64,000 bases of DNA. It comes from Cognatundibacterium griseum. Lineage in GTDB: Bacteria > Pseudomonadota > Gammaproteobacteria > Burkholderiales > Burkholderiaceae_D. The DNA lies in assembly GCF_014284195.1 (NCBI RefSeq), contig NZ_JACOGC010000004.1:186001-250000 (forward strand). The letters are read 5' to 3'. The position numbers and the translations under genes are program-made. The notes beneath the pieces were generated by a model. The model ran no database searches, had not been told where the DNA came from, and was given only the letters and a program-made list of their open reading frames with translations. Shown here one piece after another: positions 933 through 15,135 of the stretch (its first letter is position 1; the number at the start of each line of letters is the position of its first letter).

Positions 933-3272
933 ATGATGTCTGTTTCCATGGATACCATCATAAAAAAACTGCTGTCGCCCAGCGCTGCCCTGATGAACCG
1001 GCTGGGGCTGCGCACCAAGCTGCTGGCGATGTTCGTGACCCTGATGCTGCCGACACTGCTGCTCGTGCTGTACATGGTTTCCCGCATGCAGGCCGATGTC
1101 AGCATGGCCGACCATGAATTGCGCGGCATACAGATCAACCGTCAGGTCATGGATGTGCTGTTACAGACGCAAAAACACCGCGGTCAGGTGAATCTGAAAC
1201 TCTCGGGCGAAAACAACGACAGTGCGCTGGAACAGACCCGGAAGGCGCTGGCCGGCCATCTCAGCCTGCTGAATCAGAATATCCGGACCAACAGCGAATT
1301 TGGACTGGAGCAGGACTGGAAAACACTGGAAGCCGATTTACAGCAGCTGACTGCCGGACAAATTGCCGCCACCGCAGCAGCCAATATGCAGCAGCACAAT
1401 GCATTGATCGCCCGCCTGCTCCGTTTTTCGCAATATGCCAGTGAGAAAACCGGATTACTGCTGGACCCGGAAGCCTCCACCTATTTTCTGATGGATGCCT
1501 CGATTTCCCGCATCCCGCACTGGACCGAACAGATCGCCCAATTACGCGGTGCCGGTGCAGGTCTGATCCGCTCCGGCACGATCAGCCCAGAAGACAAGGC
1601 AGCGATTCTGGCCCGCATAGAAATCCTGCAAGCCAGCGTTGGTGCCTTTGTGCAGACTGCCGATGCGCTGCAACGCGCCGGCGAACAGCTGCAAGGCCAG
1701 GAAACAGAAGCGCTGCAGGCAACGCAGCAGTTCGTCGCGCTGGCGCGGCAAAATCTGCTGGGCGATGCCATCAGCGGCGACGCCGGCGGCTACTTTGCAG
1801 AAGGCACGCAGGCCATCGAAAAAACTGTGGCATTGCAAAAGCGCTTGCATCAGCGTCTGACCGATATCCTCGAACAGCGTCTCAGCAGCCAGAGCTGGCA
1901 ACGCAATCTGATCGTCGCCGTCATGTCGCTGTTGTTTATCGTCAGTGCTTATCTGCTGCTGGGTTTTTACCGCGGCTTCATGCAATCCCTGATGTCAGTA
2001 CGCGAATCCGCCGTGGCGGTCGCCGCCGGCGATCTGACGCGCCAGATCCACCTGAACGGCAGCGATGAGCTGGCCGAAACCGGCAACACGCTGGAACAGA
2101 TGAATCTGAACCTGTCGAAACTGGTTGCCAATGTGCGCACCAATGCCAACATGGTGTCGCAGCTGGGGGAGAGTCTGGCCAGCGGCATCAGCGATTTATC
2201 CGAGCGGACCGAGCAGCAGGCATCCAGCCTGGAACAAACGTCGGCCAGCGTCGAGGACCTCGCTGATACCGTCCGGAAAAATGCCGATAGTGCCCGCAGC
2301 GTCAGCACGCTCGCAGGCAGCCTGAGCCAGATCGCCGAGTCCGGCGGCGTCACCATGCACGCAGCGGTGGATTCCATGCAGGGTATCCAGCAAGGTGCGC
2401 TGAAGGTGCAGGAAATCATCGGCATCATCGACGGCATTGCGTTCCAGACCAATATTCTGGCGCTGAATGCGGCGGTGGAAGCCGCGCGTGCCGGTGAACA
2501 GGGACGCGGCTTTGCCGTGGTCGCCACCGAGGTCAGAAATCTGGCGCAACGCAGCGCCGAATCGGCACGCCAGATCCGCACGCTGATCGACAATTCGGTC
2601 ACGCAGGTCCGGCACGGCGTCGGGCAAATCAATGACGTGAACCAGACTCTCGATCAGATCGTCAGCGGCATCCGTGAACTGGCAACCAGCATCCACGCCA
2701 TTTCCACCGCTTCCGATGAACAGAGCAACGGGCTGGCACAAATTTCAGAGGCGATTCATCATCTGGACCAGATCACCCAGAGCAATGGCCAGATGGCCGA
2801 TCAGGCCCGCATTACTTCCGTGAATCTGGAAGAACGCGCCAGCCATCTGACCAGGGCGGTGTCGAGCTTCAACCTGCGTCAGGGCACCGCCGACGAAGCG
2901 CATGCAATGGTCAAACAGGCGGTGGCACTGTTCCGCGCCTCCGGCCGCAGCGCGCTGTCAGCCATCACCGCCGACCGCGAGCATCGCTTCAGCAAAAAGG
3001 ATATGTATGTGTTTGCCTTTAACCGGCAAGGTCAGTATCTGGCATTCGGCGGTAATGCGGACAAGCTGAAAGTGAATCTGCTGCAGGTCAGCGGACTCAA
3101 TGGTCGCCAGCTGATCAGCGATGCGTTTGCACTGCCGGCGTCCGGCGGCTGGATAAATTATTCGATCGTCAATCCGGTATCGCACAAGGTTGAAAACAAA
3201 ACGTCTTACATTGAGGCAGTGACGGAAGACATCGTGCTCGGCTGCGGTGTCTACCGGCTCGAAGGCGCCTGA
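933..3272 (+). CDS. Methyl-accepting chemotaxis protein with C-terminal Cache-like domain
   Basis: Membrane chemoreceptor of about 779 residues feeding the CheA/CheW pathway. I place the start at ATG 933 (or 936) just after an AGGAA at 926-930; the frame is open further upstream but looks non-coding. Order: transmembrane helix about 30-50, a long mostly helical periplasmic domain, second transmembrane helix about 325-345, HAMP to about 400, then the cytoplasmic signalling helix pair with the conserved tip ([21 protein letters not shown], near residue 500). Unusually, about 120 residues follow the signalling domain (about 655-775). Their pattern [20 protein letters not shown]...GGWINYSI..P, then K..YIEAV and the final GCGVYRLEG, resembles a single-Cache sensor normally found outside the cell. 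Ligand unknown. Confidence 0.88.
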
Positions 3273-9158: not shown

Positions 9159-9866
9159 ATGAAAATTTTTTCTGCCCTGATTTTGCTGACTGCCATCGCC
9201 CAAACCGGCGCCGTGGCCGCACCGGCACAGAGCGCTGCTGCGGCCAGCGCGGCACCTGATCTCGATCTGCGCGTGCAGTACTACAGCAAAGTGCTGACCC
9301 CGGAAGGCGTCACGCGCGAAGCCAGCTATGAAGAAGCCCTGTCGCGCCGCCCGCGCCATGTCCTGATCGCCCGTGTGCTGCCCAAAAACGTCAGCGATAT
9401 CCACGACGACGATGCCAAGGGCACACAGCACAAGCACTTCAATCACGTACTGATTCCTCGCCATATTTTTCTGGACAATCAGAAAACGCGGATTGAATTC
9501 ATCGACACCATCCACAAAGAAGTCATCGCCATTCCTGCTTCGGAATACAACAACGTGAATTTCGACGGTTCCTGGGAAAATGCGTTTTACCTGCTGGACC
9601 CGCAACTGGTGAAAAGCATCCCGCTTTCTTCCCGCACATCTGCTGTTCCCGGCGCACGCTGGCGTGAGCGTGAAAACAATGCCAATTTCCAGCGCATTTT
9701 GTGGGATGAGCAAAAGCAGATTCCGCTGATCGTCGAAAGCGGTGACAAGGCCGGAACTTTTTTCCGGCGTATGGAAGTCCGCCTGCAAAATACACTGCGC
9801 AGCGACCTGCCGTGGCTGAATACCAAGGGCTATGCGCAGAAAGAATACGCCGACTTTTTAGACTGA
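9159..9866 (+). CDS. Secreted protein of unknown function
   Basis: 235 residues beginning with a signal peptide (MKIFSALILLTAIAQTGAVA, then Ala-rich). The mature part has no cysteine and no motif I recognise. It includes an HDDDAKGTQHKHFNH segment with several potential metal ligands and a charged C-terminal half. It follows a strong terminator, so it is expressed separately from the phosphatases. I do not assign a function; codon use and a clean signal sequence support a real gene. Confidence 0.7.
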   Translation: MKIFSALILLTAIAQTGAVAAPAQSAAAASAAPDLDLRVQYYSKVLTPEGVTREASYEEALSRRPRHVLIARVLPKNVSDIHDDDAKGTQHKHFNHVLIPRHIFLDNQKTRIEFIDTIHKEVIAIPASEYNNVNFDGSWENAFYLLDPQLVKSIPLSSRTSAVPGARWRERENNANFQRILWDEQKQIPLIVESGDKAGTFFRRMEVRLQNTLRSDLPWLNTKGYAQKEYADFLD

Positions 9867-10062: not shown

Positions 10063-10092
10063 TTGCAACTCAATTGCATTTTCAGGCATAAT
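10063..10092 (+). promoter_or_regulatory. zur promoter with candidate Zur box
   Basis: The 15-mer TGCAACTCAATTGCA (10064-10078) has perfect 5-bp arms TGCAA/TTGCA. It overlaps a -35-like TTGCAA (10063-10068), 18 bp before CATAAT (10087-10092). A nearly identical 15-mer lies at 12354-12368 upstream of the zinc-receptor genes. Shared position and symmetry suggest an autoregulatory Zur operator. Confidence 0.6.
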
Positions 10093-10124
10093 ACCCATTC
10101 CAGCGACTTGCTTGTGAATGATTC

Positions 10125-10598
10125 ATGCCTGCTGACTTACCTCTGTTATCTGCCGCCGACCTGCTGCGCGACGCCGGCGTGCGCCCGACCGGAGCTCGGC
10201 AAAAAGTGCTCGGCGTCCTGCTGCACAGCCAGCGCGCCCTGACGCATCTGGATGTGCAGGATGCTCTGCCGGACATGGACCGCGTCACACTGTACCGGGC
10301 GCTTGACTGCCTGACCGATGCCCGCCTGGCGCACAAGATTTCCGGTGATGACAGGGTATTTCGTTACAGCATCGGTCACGAACAGGTCAACGGTAACAAG
10401 CACGGCAGCAGCCAGCATCAGCACGGGCATTTCAAATGCACACGCTGCGCCAAAGTATTCTGCATGCAGGATACGCAGCAGCCGGCAGCGCTGCGCCGGC
10501 AATTGCAGATCAACCTGGAAAGCACGCTCGGCCAGGGTTTCCAGAGTCACGATATTGAGCTGACCATCAAGGGCTGGTGCCCGGATTGTTCCCATTAA
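10125..10598 (+). CDS. zur: Fur-family zinc uptake regulator
   Basis: 157 residues. Winged-helix domain about 1-85 (LLRDAGVRPTGARQKVLGVLL, then ALTHLDVQDAL..MDRVTLYRALDCL). The dimerisation domain follows with HQHGHFKCTRCAKVFCM and a C-terminal WCPDCSH; the two CxxC pairs form the structural zinc site. The His-rich hinge and the partners downstream (COG0523 GTPase, ZnuD-like receptor) favour Zur over Fur. The cobW-like gene starts 16 bp after the stop. Likely autoregulated through the palindrome overlapping its promoter. Confidence 0.85.
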   Translation: MPADLPLLSAADLLRDAGVRPTGARQKVLGVLLHSQRALTHLDVQDALPDMDRVTLYRALDCLTDARLAHKISGDDRVFRYSIGHEQVNGNKHGSSQHQHGHFKCTRCAKVFCMQDTQQPAALRRQLQINLESTLGQGFQSHDIELTIKGWCPDCSH

Positions 10599-10614
10599 TT
10601 TTTCCCGGATCGTT

Positions 10615-11679
10615 ATGGCATTGATACCTACCACCATCCTCACCGGCTTTCTCGGCGCAGGAAAAACCACGTTACTGAACCGCATACTGCAGGAAAATCA
10701 CGGCTATCAGATTGCGGTGATTGAAAATGAATTCGGCCAGGAAAACATCGATAATGAAATCCTGGTGCAGGACAGTAACGAGCAGATCGTCGAAATGAAT
10801 AACGGCTGCATCTGCTGTACTGTGCGCGGCGACCTGATCATCGCCCTGAGCCGGCTGATCCAGCAGAAAAATGAAGGAAAAATTCATTTTGACCGCGTCG
10901 TGATTGAAACCACCGGCCTGGCCAATCCCGGCCCGGTGGCCCAGACCTTTTTTGTGGATGAAGAAATCGGCATGCATTACATGCTGGATGCCGTCGTTAC
11001 CGTGGTGGATGCGCGGCACGCCATGCAGCAGCTGGATGAACACGAAGAAGCGCAGCGTCAGGTCGGTTTCGCCGATAAAATCCTGTTGTCCAAAACCGAT
11101 CTGGTGACGCCTGCCGAAGTAGCAGCATTGCGCACCCGCTTAAGCCGCATCAATCCCAGAGCGCCGGTGGCCATCGCCGATTTCGGCAAGATTGCCATTG
11201 CTGAAGTGCTGGATCTGAAAGGCTTTCACCTGAACGCCAAGCTGGAACTGGATCCGGATTTCCTGCAGGCGGAAGAACAGGAACAGGCCGCCCACGACCA
11301 TGACGAACACTGCGGCGAACACTGTGATCATGCACATCACACCCACGATCACAAGCACGATCATCACCATCCGCACCATTCGGATGAGATTGCCGCGTTC
11401 ACCTTCAAAAGCACACGTCCGTTCAACACCGGACAGCTGGATGAATTCCTTGGCGGGCTGGTGCAGGTATTCGGTCCGCGCATGTTGCGCTACAAAGGTG
11501 TGCTGTATATGGAAGGCGCTGACCGCAAGGTGATTTTTCAGGGTGTGCACCAGATTATGGGCACGGATATCGGCGTTGCGTGGGCAGAAAACGAAACCAG
11601 AGAAAGTAAAATGGTGTTTATTGGCAAAAATCTACCAAAAGACATATTTATTCAAGGTTTGGAGCATTGTTTGGTATAA
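10615..11679 (+). CDS. COG0523 (CobW/ZigA-type) metallochaperone GTPase
   Basis: 354 residues. Walker A GFLGAGKTTLLN (about 9-20), the metal-binding CxCC motif in NGCICCTVRGD (about 64-67), SKTDLV for guanine recognition and a C-terminal CobW_C domain. Between the domains is a very His-rich stretch (about 222-260) with repeated HDH, HxHH and two Cys, expected to bind zinc. COG0523 proteins under Zur are zinc chaperones delivering metal to client enzymes during starvation; position after zur supports that role here rather than cobalamin synthesis. Confidence 0.88.
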   Translation: MALIPTTILTGFLGAGKTTLLNRILQENHGYQIAVIENEFGQENIDNEILVQDSNEQIVEMNNGCICCTVRGDLIIALSRLIQQKNEGKIHFDRVVIETTGLANPGPVAQTFFVDEEIGMHYMLDAVVTVVDARHAMQQLDEHEEAQRQVGFADKILLSKTDLVTPAEVAALRTRLSRINPRAPVAIADFGKIAIAEVLDLKGFHLNAKLELDPDFLQAEEQEQAAHDHDEHCGEHCDHAHHTHDHKHDHHHPHHSDEIAAFTFKSTRPFNTGQLDEFLGGLVQVFGPRMLRYKGVLYMEGADRKVIFQGVHQIMGTDIGVAWAENETRESKMVFIGKNLPKDIFIQGLEHCLV

Positions 11680-11824
11680 ACTATCGGGCTACTGATATCA
11701 GGCCTATCCGTCAGGCAACCCGCCACAGATCAGCCGGTATAAGTAAGGGGAGGATCATCATCTGCGCACCAAACCGTGACGGATATTTTCTACGTATTAA
11801 CCCGTTGTATCGAAAGTAAGCGAA

Positions 11825-12280
11825 GTGGCAACTAAATCACCTAAATCGACTGCTACAGTCAGCGCCCCCGAAGCTCTGCTCACCGAGGAACAAATCCTTG
11901 CCATGAGTGAGAAGGACTATATGAACGCTGCCCAACTGGCCTTTTTCAAAGCCCGTTTGCAGCAGCTTGAAAAAGATTTGCTGAAGAATGCCGACGAAAC
12001 AACCGAGCATCTCCGTGAAACCGTGCTGGTGCCCGATCCCGCAGACCGTGCGACGATTGAGGAAGAACATGCGCTCGAATTACGTACCCGTGATCGCGAA
12101 CGGAAATTGCTGAAGAAAGTACAGCAAGCCATTATCAGTATTGATGAAGGCGACTATGGCTGGTGTGAAGAAACCGGGGAACCGATCGGCGTACCACGCC
12201 TCCTGGCCCGCCCGACAGCCACCCTGTCACTGGAAGCGCAGCAACGGCGTGAAATGAAACAGAAGCTGTACGGCGATTAA
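11825..12280 (+). CDS. dksA: DksA-family transcription factor lacking most zinc-finger cysteines
   Basis: 151 residues, GTG start. DksA modulates RNA polymerase with ppGpp through a coiled coil inserted in the secondary channel; here the coiled coil spans about 38-105 with the acidic tip at DPADRAT. The four-Cys zinc finger is degenerate: WCEETG keeps only the first Cys, and the second pair reads TLSLEAQ. This CxxT...SxxA pattern is that of zinc-independent DksA2 of Pseudomonas aeruginosa. It may also be the normal form in this lineage. It lies 145 bp after the COG0523 gene. Confidence 0.9.
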   Translation: MATKSPKSTATVSAPEALLTEEQILAMSEKDYMNAAQLAFFKARLQQLEKDLLKNADETTEHLRETVLVPDPADRATIEEEHALELRTRDRERKLLKKVQQAIISIDEGDYGWCEETGEPIGVPRLLARPTATLSLEAQQRREMKQKLYGD

Positions 12281-12314
12281 TCCGGCTGTCATATCAACGC
12301 GTTATACTGAAAAT

Positions 12315-12341
12315 GCGTGCTCATCATCTGCACGCTTTTTT
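12315..12341 (+). terminator. Intrinsic terminator after dksA
   Basis: GCGTGC (12315-12320) and GCACGC (12330-12335) with a 9-nt loop, followed by six T. It separates the zur-cobW-dksA unit from the candidate Zur box of the next operon. Confidence 0.65.
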
Positions 12342-12353
12342 CACGCCGGAAAC

Positions 12354-12368
12354 TGCAACTTTGTTGCA
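12354..12368. promoter_or_regulatory. Second candidate Zur box
   Basis: TGCAACTTTGTTGCA: perfect 6-3-6 palindrome, 12 of 15 positions identical to the site in the zur promoter. It is about 190 bp upstream of the small gene that precedes the ZnuD-like receptor; promoter elements around it are not clear. Confidence 0.55.
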
Positions 12369-12557
12369 ATTGATGGAACTTTACCATGATCATTCCGGTC
12401 AGATCGCCTGGCACCATGTCAGTCTAACCTGACCGAAATCAAATTGACGTTGGCTTTTCACCACAGTTTTTACGTACATTGCAGTGAGTCCGGCAGCATC
12501 GAGGGCGCCATCCGGTTCGCGATATAAAAAAAGATTATTCCTGACATTACCGATTTC

Positions 12558-12944
12558 ATGAGACTGTCCGCCCCGCTCCGCTCCAAACAGGCACGCCACT
12601 GGCTGCTTTGTTTGCTGCTGCCTGCGCTGTTGCTGGCGCAGTGGGTCGGCTTATCGCACAAACTGTCCCATTTCGGCTGGGCGGGCGGCAAAACCCGGAT
12701 CAGCATCAGCGCTGAGAATCCGGTTTTTTCGTTCTGGCAATCCGGTCAGGCTGACAACGACGAAAGCGTACTGCACTCATGCGCACTGTTTGATGCCACT
12801 GTCAGCGCAGATTATCTGCAGGCAGTCATCCCTGCGCTGCCAGCCGTTTCCAAAGCACGGTTTGACGCCGTCTCCGAATCCTTCCTGGTCTGGCTGGCAA
12901 AACTGATTCCGGCCTTTGCTCCGCGCGCACCACCACTTTCCTGA
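12558..12944 (+). CDS. Small membrane or secreted protein preceding the zinc receptor
   Basis: 128 residues. An N-terminal hydrophobic segment (about 14-34, HWLLCLLLPALLLAQWVGL) works as signal peptide or membrane anchor. Then follow SHKLSHFGW and LHSCALFDATVSADYL, giving three His and a Cys that could bind metal, and a hydrophobic C-terminal third ending in PRAPPLS. I cannot name a family with certainty; it recalls small DUF2946-like proteins near metal receptor genes. It sits between a candidate Zur box and the receptor (105 bp downstream), suggesting a role in zinc uptake. Confidence 0.6.
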   Translation: MRLSAPLRSKQARHWLLCLLLPALLLAQWVGLSHKLSHFGWAGGKTRISISAENPVFSFWQSGQADNDESVLHSCALFDATVSADYLQAVIPALPAVSKARFDAVSESFLVWLAKLIPAFAPRAPPLS

Positions 12945-13049
12945 ACCACAATCACCGCCGGCACGGCTGGCGCTATCTGGTATCGATGACTGCGGCAACC
13001 GCCGGTCATCGTCATCTGTGTTTGTTATTTTTGTGTTTCGGGAATTCTT

Positions 13050-15050
13050 ATGTCTTTTCAACGTACCGCGATGGCGATGGCCGTCCTCTCCGCGCTAGCC
13101 TGCGCCCATTCATCCGCCTTTGCACAGGCAATCAGCACCGTGACCGTCTCTTCCAATCCACTGGGAAATGATGAAGACATGCAGGTATTAACACCGGCAA
13201 AAATTCTGGCAGGCCCTGAGCTGCGCGCCAAAATCGGTACATCTCTGGGGGACACGCTGGGAGGCGAGCTGGGCGTCTCCGCTTCCGGCTTCGGAGCCGG
13301 CGCCTCCCGTCCGATTATCCGCGGCCTGGAAGGGCCGCGCGTCAAAATCCTGCAAAACGGCATGGGCGTGGCGGATATTTCCAGCCTATCCAATGACCAT
13401 GCGGTCGCCAGCGAAAGTGCGACTGCGCAGCAAATCGAAATCCTGCGCGGACCGGCAGCACTGCTGTATGGCAGCGGCGCCATCGGCGGACTGGTGAATG
13501 TGATTGATAACCGGATTCCGACCGTACTGAATAAGCAGTGGGGTGGTGAAGCCGAACTGCGCAGCGGCAGCGTCAATCAGGAAAAAGGCGCTTCTTTTTC
13601 GATTGACGGCTCCAGCGGTAACATCGGCCTGCATGCCGACGGCAATGCCCGTGAAACCGCGGATTATCAAATCCCCGGCCATGCCAGTCTCATCGACAGC
13701 AGCTCTGCCACCGGCAGATTGCCATCCAGCTTTACCCGTGAACACAGCCTGAGCCTGGGCGCATCCCTCATCGAACAATGGGGCTATCTGGGTGCAGCAG
13801 TGCAAAATCTGAATGACCATTACGGCATTCCCACCGCAGAAAAATCGTATATCGACCTGGAGCAAAACCGGCTGGATCTGGAAGGTCTGCTGAAATCGCC
13901 GCTGACGGGATTTGACAGCCTGCAATTCAAACTCAGCGGCACGGATTATCAACACACCGAAAAAGCCGAAAATGGCGCGCCTGCGACTTATTTCAAAAAT
14001 AAAATGCTGGAAAGCCGTCTGGTACTGAACCATCCTGCGTGGGCAGGCTGGCAGGGCAGCTGGGGATTGCAGACCGAGCAGGTGCGTTTTTCCGCCTTGT
14101 CCGCAGCCACTGGTCGCGCAGATACCGTGCCGCAAACCCGCTCCAGTTCAGTTGCCGCCTTTGTACTGGAACAGCGCCAGTTTGGCACCGTTCTCGGCAG
14201 CGCGGGCCTGCGGCTGGAAAATGTGCGCCGTACGCCGGACGCTGTCAGCAATCTGCCGGGCAGGAGTTTTAGCCTGTATTCGGCTTCCGCAGGCGGCCTG
14301 TGGGAATTTACCCCCGGCTACAGCGCCGGACTCAGCCTGTCGCTGGCGCAACGCGCCCCGGCAACGGAAGAACTGTATTCTGAAGGCCCGCATGAATCAA
14401 CCGCAACCTTCGATATCGGTAATCCGAATATGAAAAAAGAGAGTTCGCATAATCTCGAATTCAGCCTGCAAAAAACACATGGCCTGCTGCGCTGGAAAAT
14501 CAATGCCTTCCTGAATCAGATCAGCAACTATATCTACGGCCATACCGATGGCACCAAAGTCAATGCCGAAGGTATCGCGGCAGCAGACGGCGAGTTTACC
14601 CAGCGTTACTGGTCGCAGGCCTCGGCACAGATTCACGGCGGCGAGGCGGAGCTCAGTTATAACCATACGGGGGAAGGTTTTTCTGCCCGCGTCTTTGCCG
14701 ATTTGTCACGCGGCACATTGACAGACATTGGTAATCTGCCGCTGCAACCGGCAGTCCGTACCGGTATCGATCTGGGCTATAAAATGAATGGCTGGCGCAC
14801 CGGCCTGAATATCCTGCACGCCAGCCAGCAGGACCGGCTGGCCAGTTTTGAGAGCTTCGTCACACCGTCTTACACCAGGGTCGACGCCAGCCTCAGCTAC
14901 TCGCATCCGTATGCGCGCAGCCAGATGACCTGGTTCCTGATGGCCAAAAACCTGCTGAATCAGGATATCCGGCTCTCCACATCGATCCTCAGAGAAACAG
15001 TTCCGCAACCTGGAAGAAACGTGATTGCCGGGGTCAGGGTCAGTTTTTAA
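13050..15050 (+). CDS. TonB-dependent outer-membrane receptor, ZnuD-like
   Basis: 666 residues with signal peptide ending HSSAFAQA. Plug domain about 30-160 with PIIRGLEGPRVKILQNGMG, SLSNDHAVASES and EILRGPAALLYGSGAIGGLVNV, then a 22-strand barrel ending in the aromatic GVRVSF typical of outer-membrane proteins. The plug motifs closely resemble Neisseria ZnuD. The extended His-rich loop of neisserial ZnuD is not obvious. Position in a zur cluster after a candidate Zur box supports zinc (or zinc complex) import; the substrate is inferred. Confidence 0.85.
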   Translation: MSFQRTAMAMAVLSALACAHSSAFAQAISTVTVSSNPLGNDEDMQVLTPAKILAGPELRAKIGTSLGDTLGGELGVSASGFGAGASRPIIRGLEGPRVKILQNGMGVADISSLSNDHAVASESATAQQIEILRGPAALLYGSGAIGGLVNVIDNRIPTVLNKQWGGEAELRSGSVNQEKGASFSIDGSSGNIGLHADGNARETADYQIPGHASLIDSSSATGRLPSSFTREHSLSLGASLIEQWGYLGAAVQNLNDHYGIPTAEKSYIDLEQNRLDLEGLLKSPLTGFDSLQFKLSGTDYQHTEKAENGAPATYFKNKMLESRLVLNHPAWAGWQGSWGLQTEQVRFSALSAATGRADTVPQTRSSSVAAFVLEQRQFGTVLGSAGLRLENVRRTPDAVSNLPGRSFSLYSASAGGLWEFTPGYSAGLSLSLAQRAPATEELYSEGPHESTATFDIGNPNMKKESSHNLEFSLQKTHGLLRWKINAFLNQISNYIYGHTDGTKVNAEGIAAADGEFTQRYWSQASAQIHGGEAELSYNHTGEGFSARVFADLSRGTLTDIGNLPLQPAVRTGIDLGYKMNGWRTGLNILHASQQDRLASFESFVTPSYTRVDASLSYSHPYARSQMTWFLMAKNLLNQDIRLSTSILRETVPQPGRNVIAGVRVSF

Positions 15051-15107
15051 TGCAGCGAAGTTGTTACCAAATGTAATAACGAACTGGAAAGAAATATTTA
15101 CAATTCG

Positions 15108-15135
15108 AAATGGGAGGTGCAACTCCTCCCATTTT
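15108..15135 (+). terminator. Intrinsic terminator after the receptor gene
   Basis: AAATGGGAGG (15108-15117) / CCTCCCATTT (15125-15134) with a 7-nt loop; the T-tract is short because it is part of the stem. Confidence 0.7.

Follow-up and report, generated by a model that had tools for sequence, protein, structure and literature searches.

The 15-bp palindrome TGCAAC-N3-(G/A)TTGCA is, very probably, a zinc-dependent Zur operator, predicted from sequence, that would repress zur-cobW, a gene pair for a small protein and a ZnuD-like receptor, and the only ZIP gene of the genome. Two copies lie within the window (the whole 64-kb stretch of DNA that was analysed), and they are regarded as putative Zur operators because of comparison with relatives. 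That Zur binds the DNA, that it represses in response to zinc, and where the promoters lie are inferences from these comparisons and from the sequence. The operator is a known kind of switch, and its sequence has already been proposed for another bacterial group; for Undibacterium and its betaproteobacterial relatives, the analysis provides a candidate regulon of Zur together with its operator.

Gene cluster and palindromes within the window

The host is a relative of the freshwater genus Undibacterium. All features described here lie on the forward strand. Operator A (TGCAACTCAATTGCA, 10064..10078) precedes zur-cobW and ends 46 bp before the ATG of zur (10125..10598), which encodes a 157-aa Fur-family regulator. 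The gene cobW (10615..11679) starts 16 bp downstream of zur and encodes a COG0523 GTPase of 354 aa with a His-rich middle (PF02492 and CobW_C PF07683), and dksA (11825..12280) follows 145 bp further downstream. Operator B (TGCAACTTTGTTGCA, 12354..12368) precedes a 128-aa ORF (12558..12944), whose start lies 189 bp beyond the operator, and the gene of a 666-aa TonB-dependent receptor (13050..15050; PF00593 and PF07715). The two 15-mers reported in the initial annotation were thus confirmed, together with their 12/15 identity and their positions ahead of zinc-related genes; all mismatches between them are confined to positions 8–10. Both had been called symmetrical, which holds for operator B, a perfect 6-3-6 palindrome, whereas operator A pairs at only five of six arm positions, with C6 facing A10.

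Exact TGCAACNNNRTTGCA gives three strand-matches in the window, at two places, against a mean of 0.05 in shuffled windows (n = 100), and none of the 100 shuffles reached three; the 64-kb scan returned no place besides operators A and B. In a scan of the window allowing three mismatches, there were 140 matches against 156.8 expected. This lack of excess would fit two short palindromes that are alike by chance, as would a reversed-sequence control that yields three loose places in the genome, where the palindrome itself has six loose places, half of them not at recognised zinc genes. However, the exact form is well above the window expectation and is conserved in relatives, and coincidence has a negligible probability.

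Operator A overlaps the −35-like hexamer of a promoter candidate (TTGCAA-18 bp-CATAAT, 10063..10092), which a pattern scan matched at 9/12 positions, a score no commoner in the window than in shuffles. A CATAAT-like block downstream of operator A is visible in relatives as well. Similarly, the right arm of operator B forms the −35 element of a possible promoter recognised by eye (TTGCAA-18 bp-GATCAT, 12364..12393), for which the pattern scan gave no match. Between dksA and operator B lies a terminator-like hairpin (GCGTGC...GCACGC) followed by T6 (12315..12341; fold z-score −2.9). This hairpin was missed by a pattern scan with a loop limit of 8, and stems resembling it are seen by eye in most of 25 aligned rows.

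Conservation of the site and identity of the regulator

To compare relatives, 80 named zur loci were divided into 45 linked loci, which have a dksA match and a cobW gene no further than 1.5 kb away, and 35 unlinked loci, a few of which end soon past zur. The exact site stands ahead of zur in 41 of the 45 linked loci versus none of the 35 unlinked ones, and in two of the latter when one mismatch is allowed; eight control palindromes gave no exact match at zur in the named loci. The linked loci without site A are L089, L115, L117, and L101, the last of which is covered for no more than some 215 bp upstream. Additionally, TGCAACTnnATTGCA is found within 400 bp of zur in 27 of 30 family loci, and the three family loci without it all belong to genus g24. 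Genus g27 carries zur, and the one genome examined has no site at zur. Conservation upstream of orthologous zur genes, to which the initial annotation had looked, is borne out by both sets. Among the 33 linked loci that have the receptor, 20 contain operator B in its exact form and 24 contain it with at most one mismatch; of the 12 linked loci that lack the receptor, one has the exact site. Eight of the nine receptor loci without site B are from Collimonas.

In an alignment of sites with their flanks, the flanks are near random beyond a short A/T and CATAAT zone. Since these sites were picked by pattern, the invariance of the arms is partly by construction, and the unselected figure is that of the 41/45 linked loci. 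The C6/A10 imperfection is common to all 41 zur sites of the named loci, and perfect palindromes predominate at the receptor and ZIP genes. Retention of the site with no regulatory role, either because it belongs to a promoter or because it was inherited from a common ancestor, would agree with the overlap of operator A with a −35-like hexamer and with DNA that neighbouring species share by descent. Nevertheless, the site is kept amid near-random flanks, unlinked zur genes are without it, and it recurs ahead of unrelated promoters, which together make such retention very improbable.

Outside the window, a third site was found at the genome's only ZIP gene. A one-mismatch genome scan gave 25 forward and 33 reverse strand-matches versus 7 and 9 for the control; the one-mismatch sites among them are not used as evidence here. 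Among the matches listed, 20 regions of the genus were picked because they bear sites, and in 19 of these regions the sites are at ZIP (15), COG0523 (3), or TonB-receptor (1) genes. The other-genus set, likewise among the matches listed, comprises 17 regions, with one further 1-kb stretch (L227) left out; 13 of the 17 are at ZIP, COG0523, ZrgA-like, TonB, or ABC-transport genes and four are off recognised zinc genes. Genes in the GC-rich stretches of this set were assigned by similarity, as longest-ORF calling is unreliable there. One stretch (L214) that had seemed receptor-like was rejected because Pfam identified a prolyl oligopeptidase, and it was tallied as non-zinc. In some relatives, three sites lie ahead of COG0523/QueD/FolE2 or COG0523/MerC/ZrgA genes.

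Across genomes, 68 of 69 with a strong Zur match contain a perfect palindrome versus 15 of 94 with no Zur match, in counts that ignore relatedness. The palindromes number 185 (control 17) in the former group and 17 (control 5) in the latter. Moreover, seven of seven stretches from genomes with no Zur match retain cobW and dksA and have no site; they document loci that lack both zur and its operators but still have target genes.

The zur product is a Fur-family protein by sequence (PF01475, 33.5 bits; threshold 23.1). It falls short of the curated Zur model PRK11639 (26 bits; cutoff 167), and Fur models and structures score above Zur ones, so that the name Zur is given because of gene context and the sites, with no curated Zur cutoff passed. 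This generic score, the comparative basis of the predicted Zur binding, and the 15 of 94 genomes with no Zur match that retain at least one perfect palindrome would suit another regulator, either canonical Fur or an unrelated factor, controlling the same genes through the palindrome. In contrast, the site tracks the presence of the window-type zur in loci, genomes, and stretches. Furthermore, the genome has one other Fur-family gene, which matches Fur strongly (153.8 bits); Fur is described as having another type of box (GATAATGAT...), and the same palindrome is proposed for Desulfovibrio Zur (PMC545781). Control by another regulator is therefore unlikely, and we prefer Zur.

As a Zur operator, the palindrome would be bound by zinc-loaded Zur dimers when zinc is plentiful. 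The dimers would cover the −35 region and silence three targets: zur-cobW, the genes of the small protein and the ZnuD-like receptor, and the single gene for a ZIP importer. Under zinc shortage, Zur would be released, and all three would be switched on. Because a genome search gave no ZnuA match, the ZIP importer and the receptor are the likely route of zinc entry.

Receptor, small partner, and DksA

The best NCBIfam model for the receptor is ZnuD, at 390 bits against a cutoff of 950; hence, it is named ZnuD-like only. The small partner has no Pfam family match. Its invariant residues are Q28, W29, H34, H38, H73, S74, C75, D79, W112, F120, and R123–P126. A DUF2946 scan of the window protein and six relatives left the window protein without a match, and one relative (L088) spans nearly the whole model at 12.3 bits (gathering score 23.7; E 0.31). 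Membership in DUF2946 is not supported, as none of the proteins scanned reaches the gathering score. A Pseudomonas DUF2946 gene, PA0433, adjoins the TonB receptor gene PA0434 by number (PMC9431628). Among 50 small-partner stretches (30 best-scoring and 20 hand-picked), 47 have a ZnuD-like match, and the pairing was confirmed in 35 by a strict signature on the same strand. These stretches bring to attention the small protein as a conserved but uncharacterised companion of receptors of the ZnuD-like kind.

A tentative extension, which we consider quite possible without favouring it, is that differences in operator design grade the response of the regulon and that the small partner handles zinc in the service of the ZnuD-like receptor. 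With imperfect sites at zur and perfect or triple sites elsewhere, zur-cobW would be induced early, and the emergency genes would follow last. The small partner might take zinc from the receptor or help to assemble it, with invariant H34, H38, H73, C75, and D79 possibly involved.

The dksA product (DksA_N PF21157 and zf-dskA_traR PF01258) scores 141.6 bits against TIGR02420 (cutoff 115.5) and is a one-cysteine form (CEETG). In 44 of 45 related loci, the C-terminal part has a single Cys and thus no C4 finger, and the remaining locus (L130) is truncated at a contig end; on this basis, the protein appears to be the ordinary DksA of the group. The other zf-dksA gene of the genome encodes a shorter C4 protein of 125 aa. 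No palindrome of its own accompanies dksA, and across the 45 loci the cobW-dksA gap is 146–766 bp versus 6–230 bp for zur-cobW. The initial annotation had proposed a zinc-sparing DksA under Zur; with such wide gaps and a single Cys as the group norm, the proposal is unsupported. The idea of a Zur-controlled zinc-saving spare was set aside. Of the coordinated set first suggested, comparison upholds zur, cobW, and the small-gene/receptor pair, while dksA is a doubtful member. For Cupriavidus metallidurans, a proteome comparison found no regulation of the DksA whose gene lies between cobW2 and cobW3 (PMC13192273), although a review table places dksA1 inside the Zur regulon (PMC6103462).

Relation to known Zur systems

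A literature search found no printed TGCAAC box for this betaproteobacterial group, with figures, supplements, and the primary Cupriavidus papers outside its scope. In 2004, ATGCAAC-N3-GTTGCAT (ATGCAACNNNGTTGCAT) was proposed to serve as Zur box in two species of Desulfovibrio (PMC545781). The palindrome had been presented as the Zur operator of this lineage; the operator reading is supported by comparison, but its lineage-specificity is not, as ATGCAACNNNGTTGCAT was already proposed for Desulfovibrio. The arms and the 3-bp spacer are alike in the two groups, and in both the box lies ahead of zinc genes that adjoin zur. However, the Desulfovibrio box precedes znuABC-zur, whereas the sites here precede zur-cobW, the ZnuD-like receptor, and ZIP. 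The TGCAAC-N3-GTTGCA type therefore extends well beyond Desulfovibrio. It is unlike the GTTAT/ATAAC type of Caulobacter Zur sites (PMC4176598).

RegPrecise contains a Burkholderia Zur box (PMC10563805); it comes from a related betaproteobacterium and, like operator A, precedes zur. The receptor has its best PDB match in ZnuD of Neisseria (4rdr, E 1.3e-79), whose function is putative for the window receptor, which lies below the NCBIfam cutoff. In Cupriavidus metallidurans, the Zur regulon comprises zur, cobW1-3, and zupT. There, cobW3 follows dksA, whereas here the ZnuD-like receptor and small partner do so. The likenesses comprise the order of zur, a COG0523 gene with a His-rich middle, and dksA; a ZIP importer within the Zur regulon; and multiple boxes ahead of the starvation operon, a trait that recurs in some of the relatives analysed here.

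Palindromic sites in the window and its genome

Operator A (TGCAACTCAATTGCA, 10064–10078) lies before the Fur-family gene zur, and operator B (TGCAACTTTGTTGCA, 12354–12368) precedes a small ORF and the TonB receptor gene that comes next. As the initial annotation reported, the two are identical at 12/15 positions and each lies ahead of zinc-related genes. They had also both been described as symmetrical; operator B is indeed a perfect palindrome, whereas operator A has one unmatched arm pair. TGCAACNNNRTTGCA gave three strand-matches at two places in the window, compared with 0.05 expected, and is absent elsewhere in it; with three mismatches allowed, no excess of matches was found in the window.

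In the 3.6 Mb genome, where the window spans C14:186001–250000, TGCAA-N5-TTGCA occurs at six places, whereas its reversed control has three. Of these six, three adjoin zinc genes: operators A and B, and a site at the start of a ZIP gene, the only ZIP gene found in this genome, in which no ZnuA family match was found. By eye, no recognised zinc gene adjoins the remaining three (L002, L005, and L006). In the ZIP stretch (L001, contig C10), the palindrome sits at the very beginning of the reading frame (approximately 1373–1516, minus strand). This gene has no clear ATG at the conserved start and its first ATG is internal, so it may have an atypical start codon or be read from a leaderless transcript.

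The window genes encode a Fur-family regulator, a COG0523 GTPase (CobW) whose middle part is His-rich, DksA, a ZnuD-like receptor, and, ahead of the receptor, a 128-aa protein that fits no family. The regulator is 96–97% identical to its counterpart from Undibacterium oligocarboniphilum EM 1 (L066), which places the organism in Undibacterium or very close to it. It passes no curated Zur model, and its PDB matches are Fur proteins only. However, the genome holds just two Fur-family genes, and since the other is a strong Fur match (153.8 bits), the window gene is the Zur candidate. Additionally, an exported-looking 235-aa protein (9159–9866) is encoded after an alkaline phosphatase gene; it has no Pfam or NCBIfam match and occurs near zur in just a few close relatives.

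Sites before zur and the receptor in relatives

The window regulator has a match in 101/195 family genomes. Among the best 30 family loci, TGCAAC-N3-ATTGCA lies within 400 bp before zur in 27, and the three without it all belong to one genus (g24). In 45 of the named zur loci (best 80 of 83 found), zur stands beside cobW, with dksA. TGCAA-N5-TTGCA is present at zur in 41 of these 45 linked loci and in 0/35 unlinked loci (2/35 with one mismatch), while eight control palindromes gave no exact match at zur and 0–2 each with one mismatch. The motif proposed as the Zur operator is thus conserved upstream of zur in relatives. Position 6 is C and position 10 is A in all 41 sites. In 32 non-redundant promoters, picked by the site itself so that the arms are fixed by that choice, the information content of the middle positions is 1.80, 1.00, and 1.36 bits. 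Outside the site, the sequence is nearly random except for adjacent A/T and a block resembling CATAAT. Among more distant genera, the zur promoters of L149, L155, and L154 carry perfect or near sites (TGCAACCGAGTTGCA, CGCAACTTTGTTGCA, and CGCAACAGGGTTGCA, respectively); the remaining ones inspected showed no recognisable site.

A −35-like TTGCAA, spaced 18 bp from a CATAAT, overlaps operator A, and by eye the right arm of operator B can likewise be read as a −35; matches of this −35-like/CATAAT type are no commoner than in shuffles. In the simplest account, zinc-loaded Zur on an operator over the −35 would block polymerase, and PMC6103462 describes such blocking for Zur in general. We infer that Zur binds the palindrome, senses zinc, and represses.

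The receptor is present in 33/45 linked loci. Between dksA and the next gene, the site is exact in 20 of these 33 and has at most one mismatch in 24; it occurs in 1/12 linked loci without the receptor (L101), and one control palindrome had one exact match at this position. Nine receptor loci, eight of Collimonas and L089, lack the site, and palindrome control of the receptor is therefore not universal. By eye, most of 25 aligned rows have a terminator-like stem and a run of T immediately upstream of the site. Because such a stem (fold z −2.9) also lies just before operator B, the receptor should have its own promoter.

Other targets and co-occurrence with Zur

Among the matches listed, TGCAACNNNRTTGCA occurs in at least 38/39 genomes of the window's genus. 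In 15 of 20 genus regions chosen for having sites outside the zur cluster, the site lies 127–137 bp upstream of the matched segment of a ZIP gene; three of the ZIP proteins were also checked with Pfam. Triple sites precede a COG0523 gene in L172 (then QueD and FolE2), L175, and L185 (MerC between, ZrgA after), and a TonB receptor in L169; in L178, an imperfect site lies inside a gene. Opposite triple sites in L185 (4338–6769) and L037, two genes (435 and 376 aa) run away from the site without Pfam matches; the first may resemble the periplasmic zinc chaperone AztD.

In 17 regions from other genera, the site accompanies ZIP (L215, L223, L225), COG0523 (L212, with FolE2; L217), ZrgA-like proteins (L211, L213, L221; 24–27% identity), TonB receptors (L210, L216, L218), an ABC-3 transporter (L219), and an ABC ATPase (L226), although a general TonB or ABC label by itself is no proof of involvement with zinc. 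In L214, L220, L222, and L224, no zinc gene was recognised at the site. The palindromes of L214 and L220 are perfect and lie near prolyl oligopeptidase and proteasome-type genes, respectively, for which a zinc role gives no explanation as far as seen. Furthermore, a Rhodocyclaceae MAG (L137) has a perfect site 181 bp before its cobW match.

A perfect palindrome is found in 68/69 genomes whose Zur match is strong (E up to 1e-30; 185 sites vs 17 for the reversed control), 17/29 with a diverged Zur (23 vs 10), 1/3 with a weak Zur (1 vs 0), and 15/94 without a Zur match (17 vs 5); Fisher's p is 9e-30, but the test assumes independent genomes, and these are related. Seven stretches from genomes without a Zur match keep cobW and dksA. 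None has the site, the same genomes have no perfect palindrome, and a receptor match is present in six. In the five whose cobW upstream region was inspected, cobW is directly preceded, with no intervening zur, by a gene product that by eye is tyrosine-recombinase-like. Genera keeping cobW-dksA without zur and palindrome were observed in L258–L261 and L269, as well as L271 and L276. Genomes of genus g27 have Zur and 2–5 palindromes each, and the single zur promoter examined there (L159) has no site.

The small partner, dksA, and known Zur systems

The small partner (12558–12944) belongs to no family. Its homologues have 116–135 aa with a C-terminal RAPP, and a profile search found it in 108/195 family genomes and 26/44 genera, including genera without the window-type Zur, where it is next to ZnuD-like receptors. 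A ZnuD-like match is present in 47/50 small-partner stretches, and in 35 it was verified to lie at most 1.2 kb away on the same strand. Q28, W29, H34, H38, H73, S74, C75, D79, W112, F120, and RAPP are invariant in 32 aligned members, and the His/Cys/Asp set suggests a role in metal handling.

The DksA finger region has one cysteine in 44/45 related loci (the 45th is incomplete), and the window protein passes the DksA equivalog model; the other zf-dksA protein of the genome (G000:C13:207305–207397, L187) is of the DksA/TraR type, shorter at 125 aa, and its finger is complete, with four cysteines. In related loci, dksA lies 146–766 bp from cobW, compared with 6–230 bp between zur and cobW. In Cupriavidus metallidurans, a proteome comparison detected no regulation of the DksA whose gene lies between cobW2 and cobW3 (PMC13192273), although dksA1 appears in a review's table of that Zur regulon (PMC6103462). 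Zur control of a zinc-sparing DksA, as initially annotated, is thus rather doubtful.

Sites downstream of zur are C6/G10 in 17/23 cases (the rest 4 TG, 1 AC, and 1 CC) and those of the genus regions in 25/28 (the rest 3 CA). Because the zur sites are constantly imperfect while the others are mostly C6/G10, their sequences suggest graded control. In Cupriavidus, a two-box operon is reported to be expressed only under strict starvation. The zur-cobW-dksA order, as in the window, is also already known there, together with a Zur-controlled ZIP importer; here, the palindrome is at ZIP. RegPrecise contains a Burkholderia Zur box, according to PMC10563805. The palindrome had been regarded as the Zur operator of this lineage, but Table 5 of PMC545781 had already put it forward as a Zur box, for two species of Desulfovibrio. 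Collectively, the window palindrome is well supported as a fresh instance of an already known type of Zur box, and the most interesting new detail, together with the small partner, is that the zur site is always imperfect.
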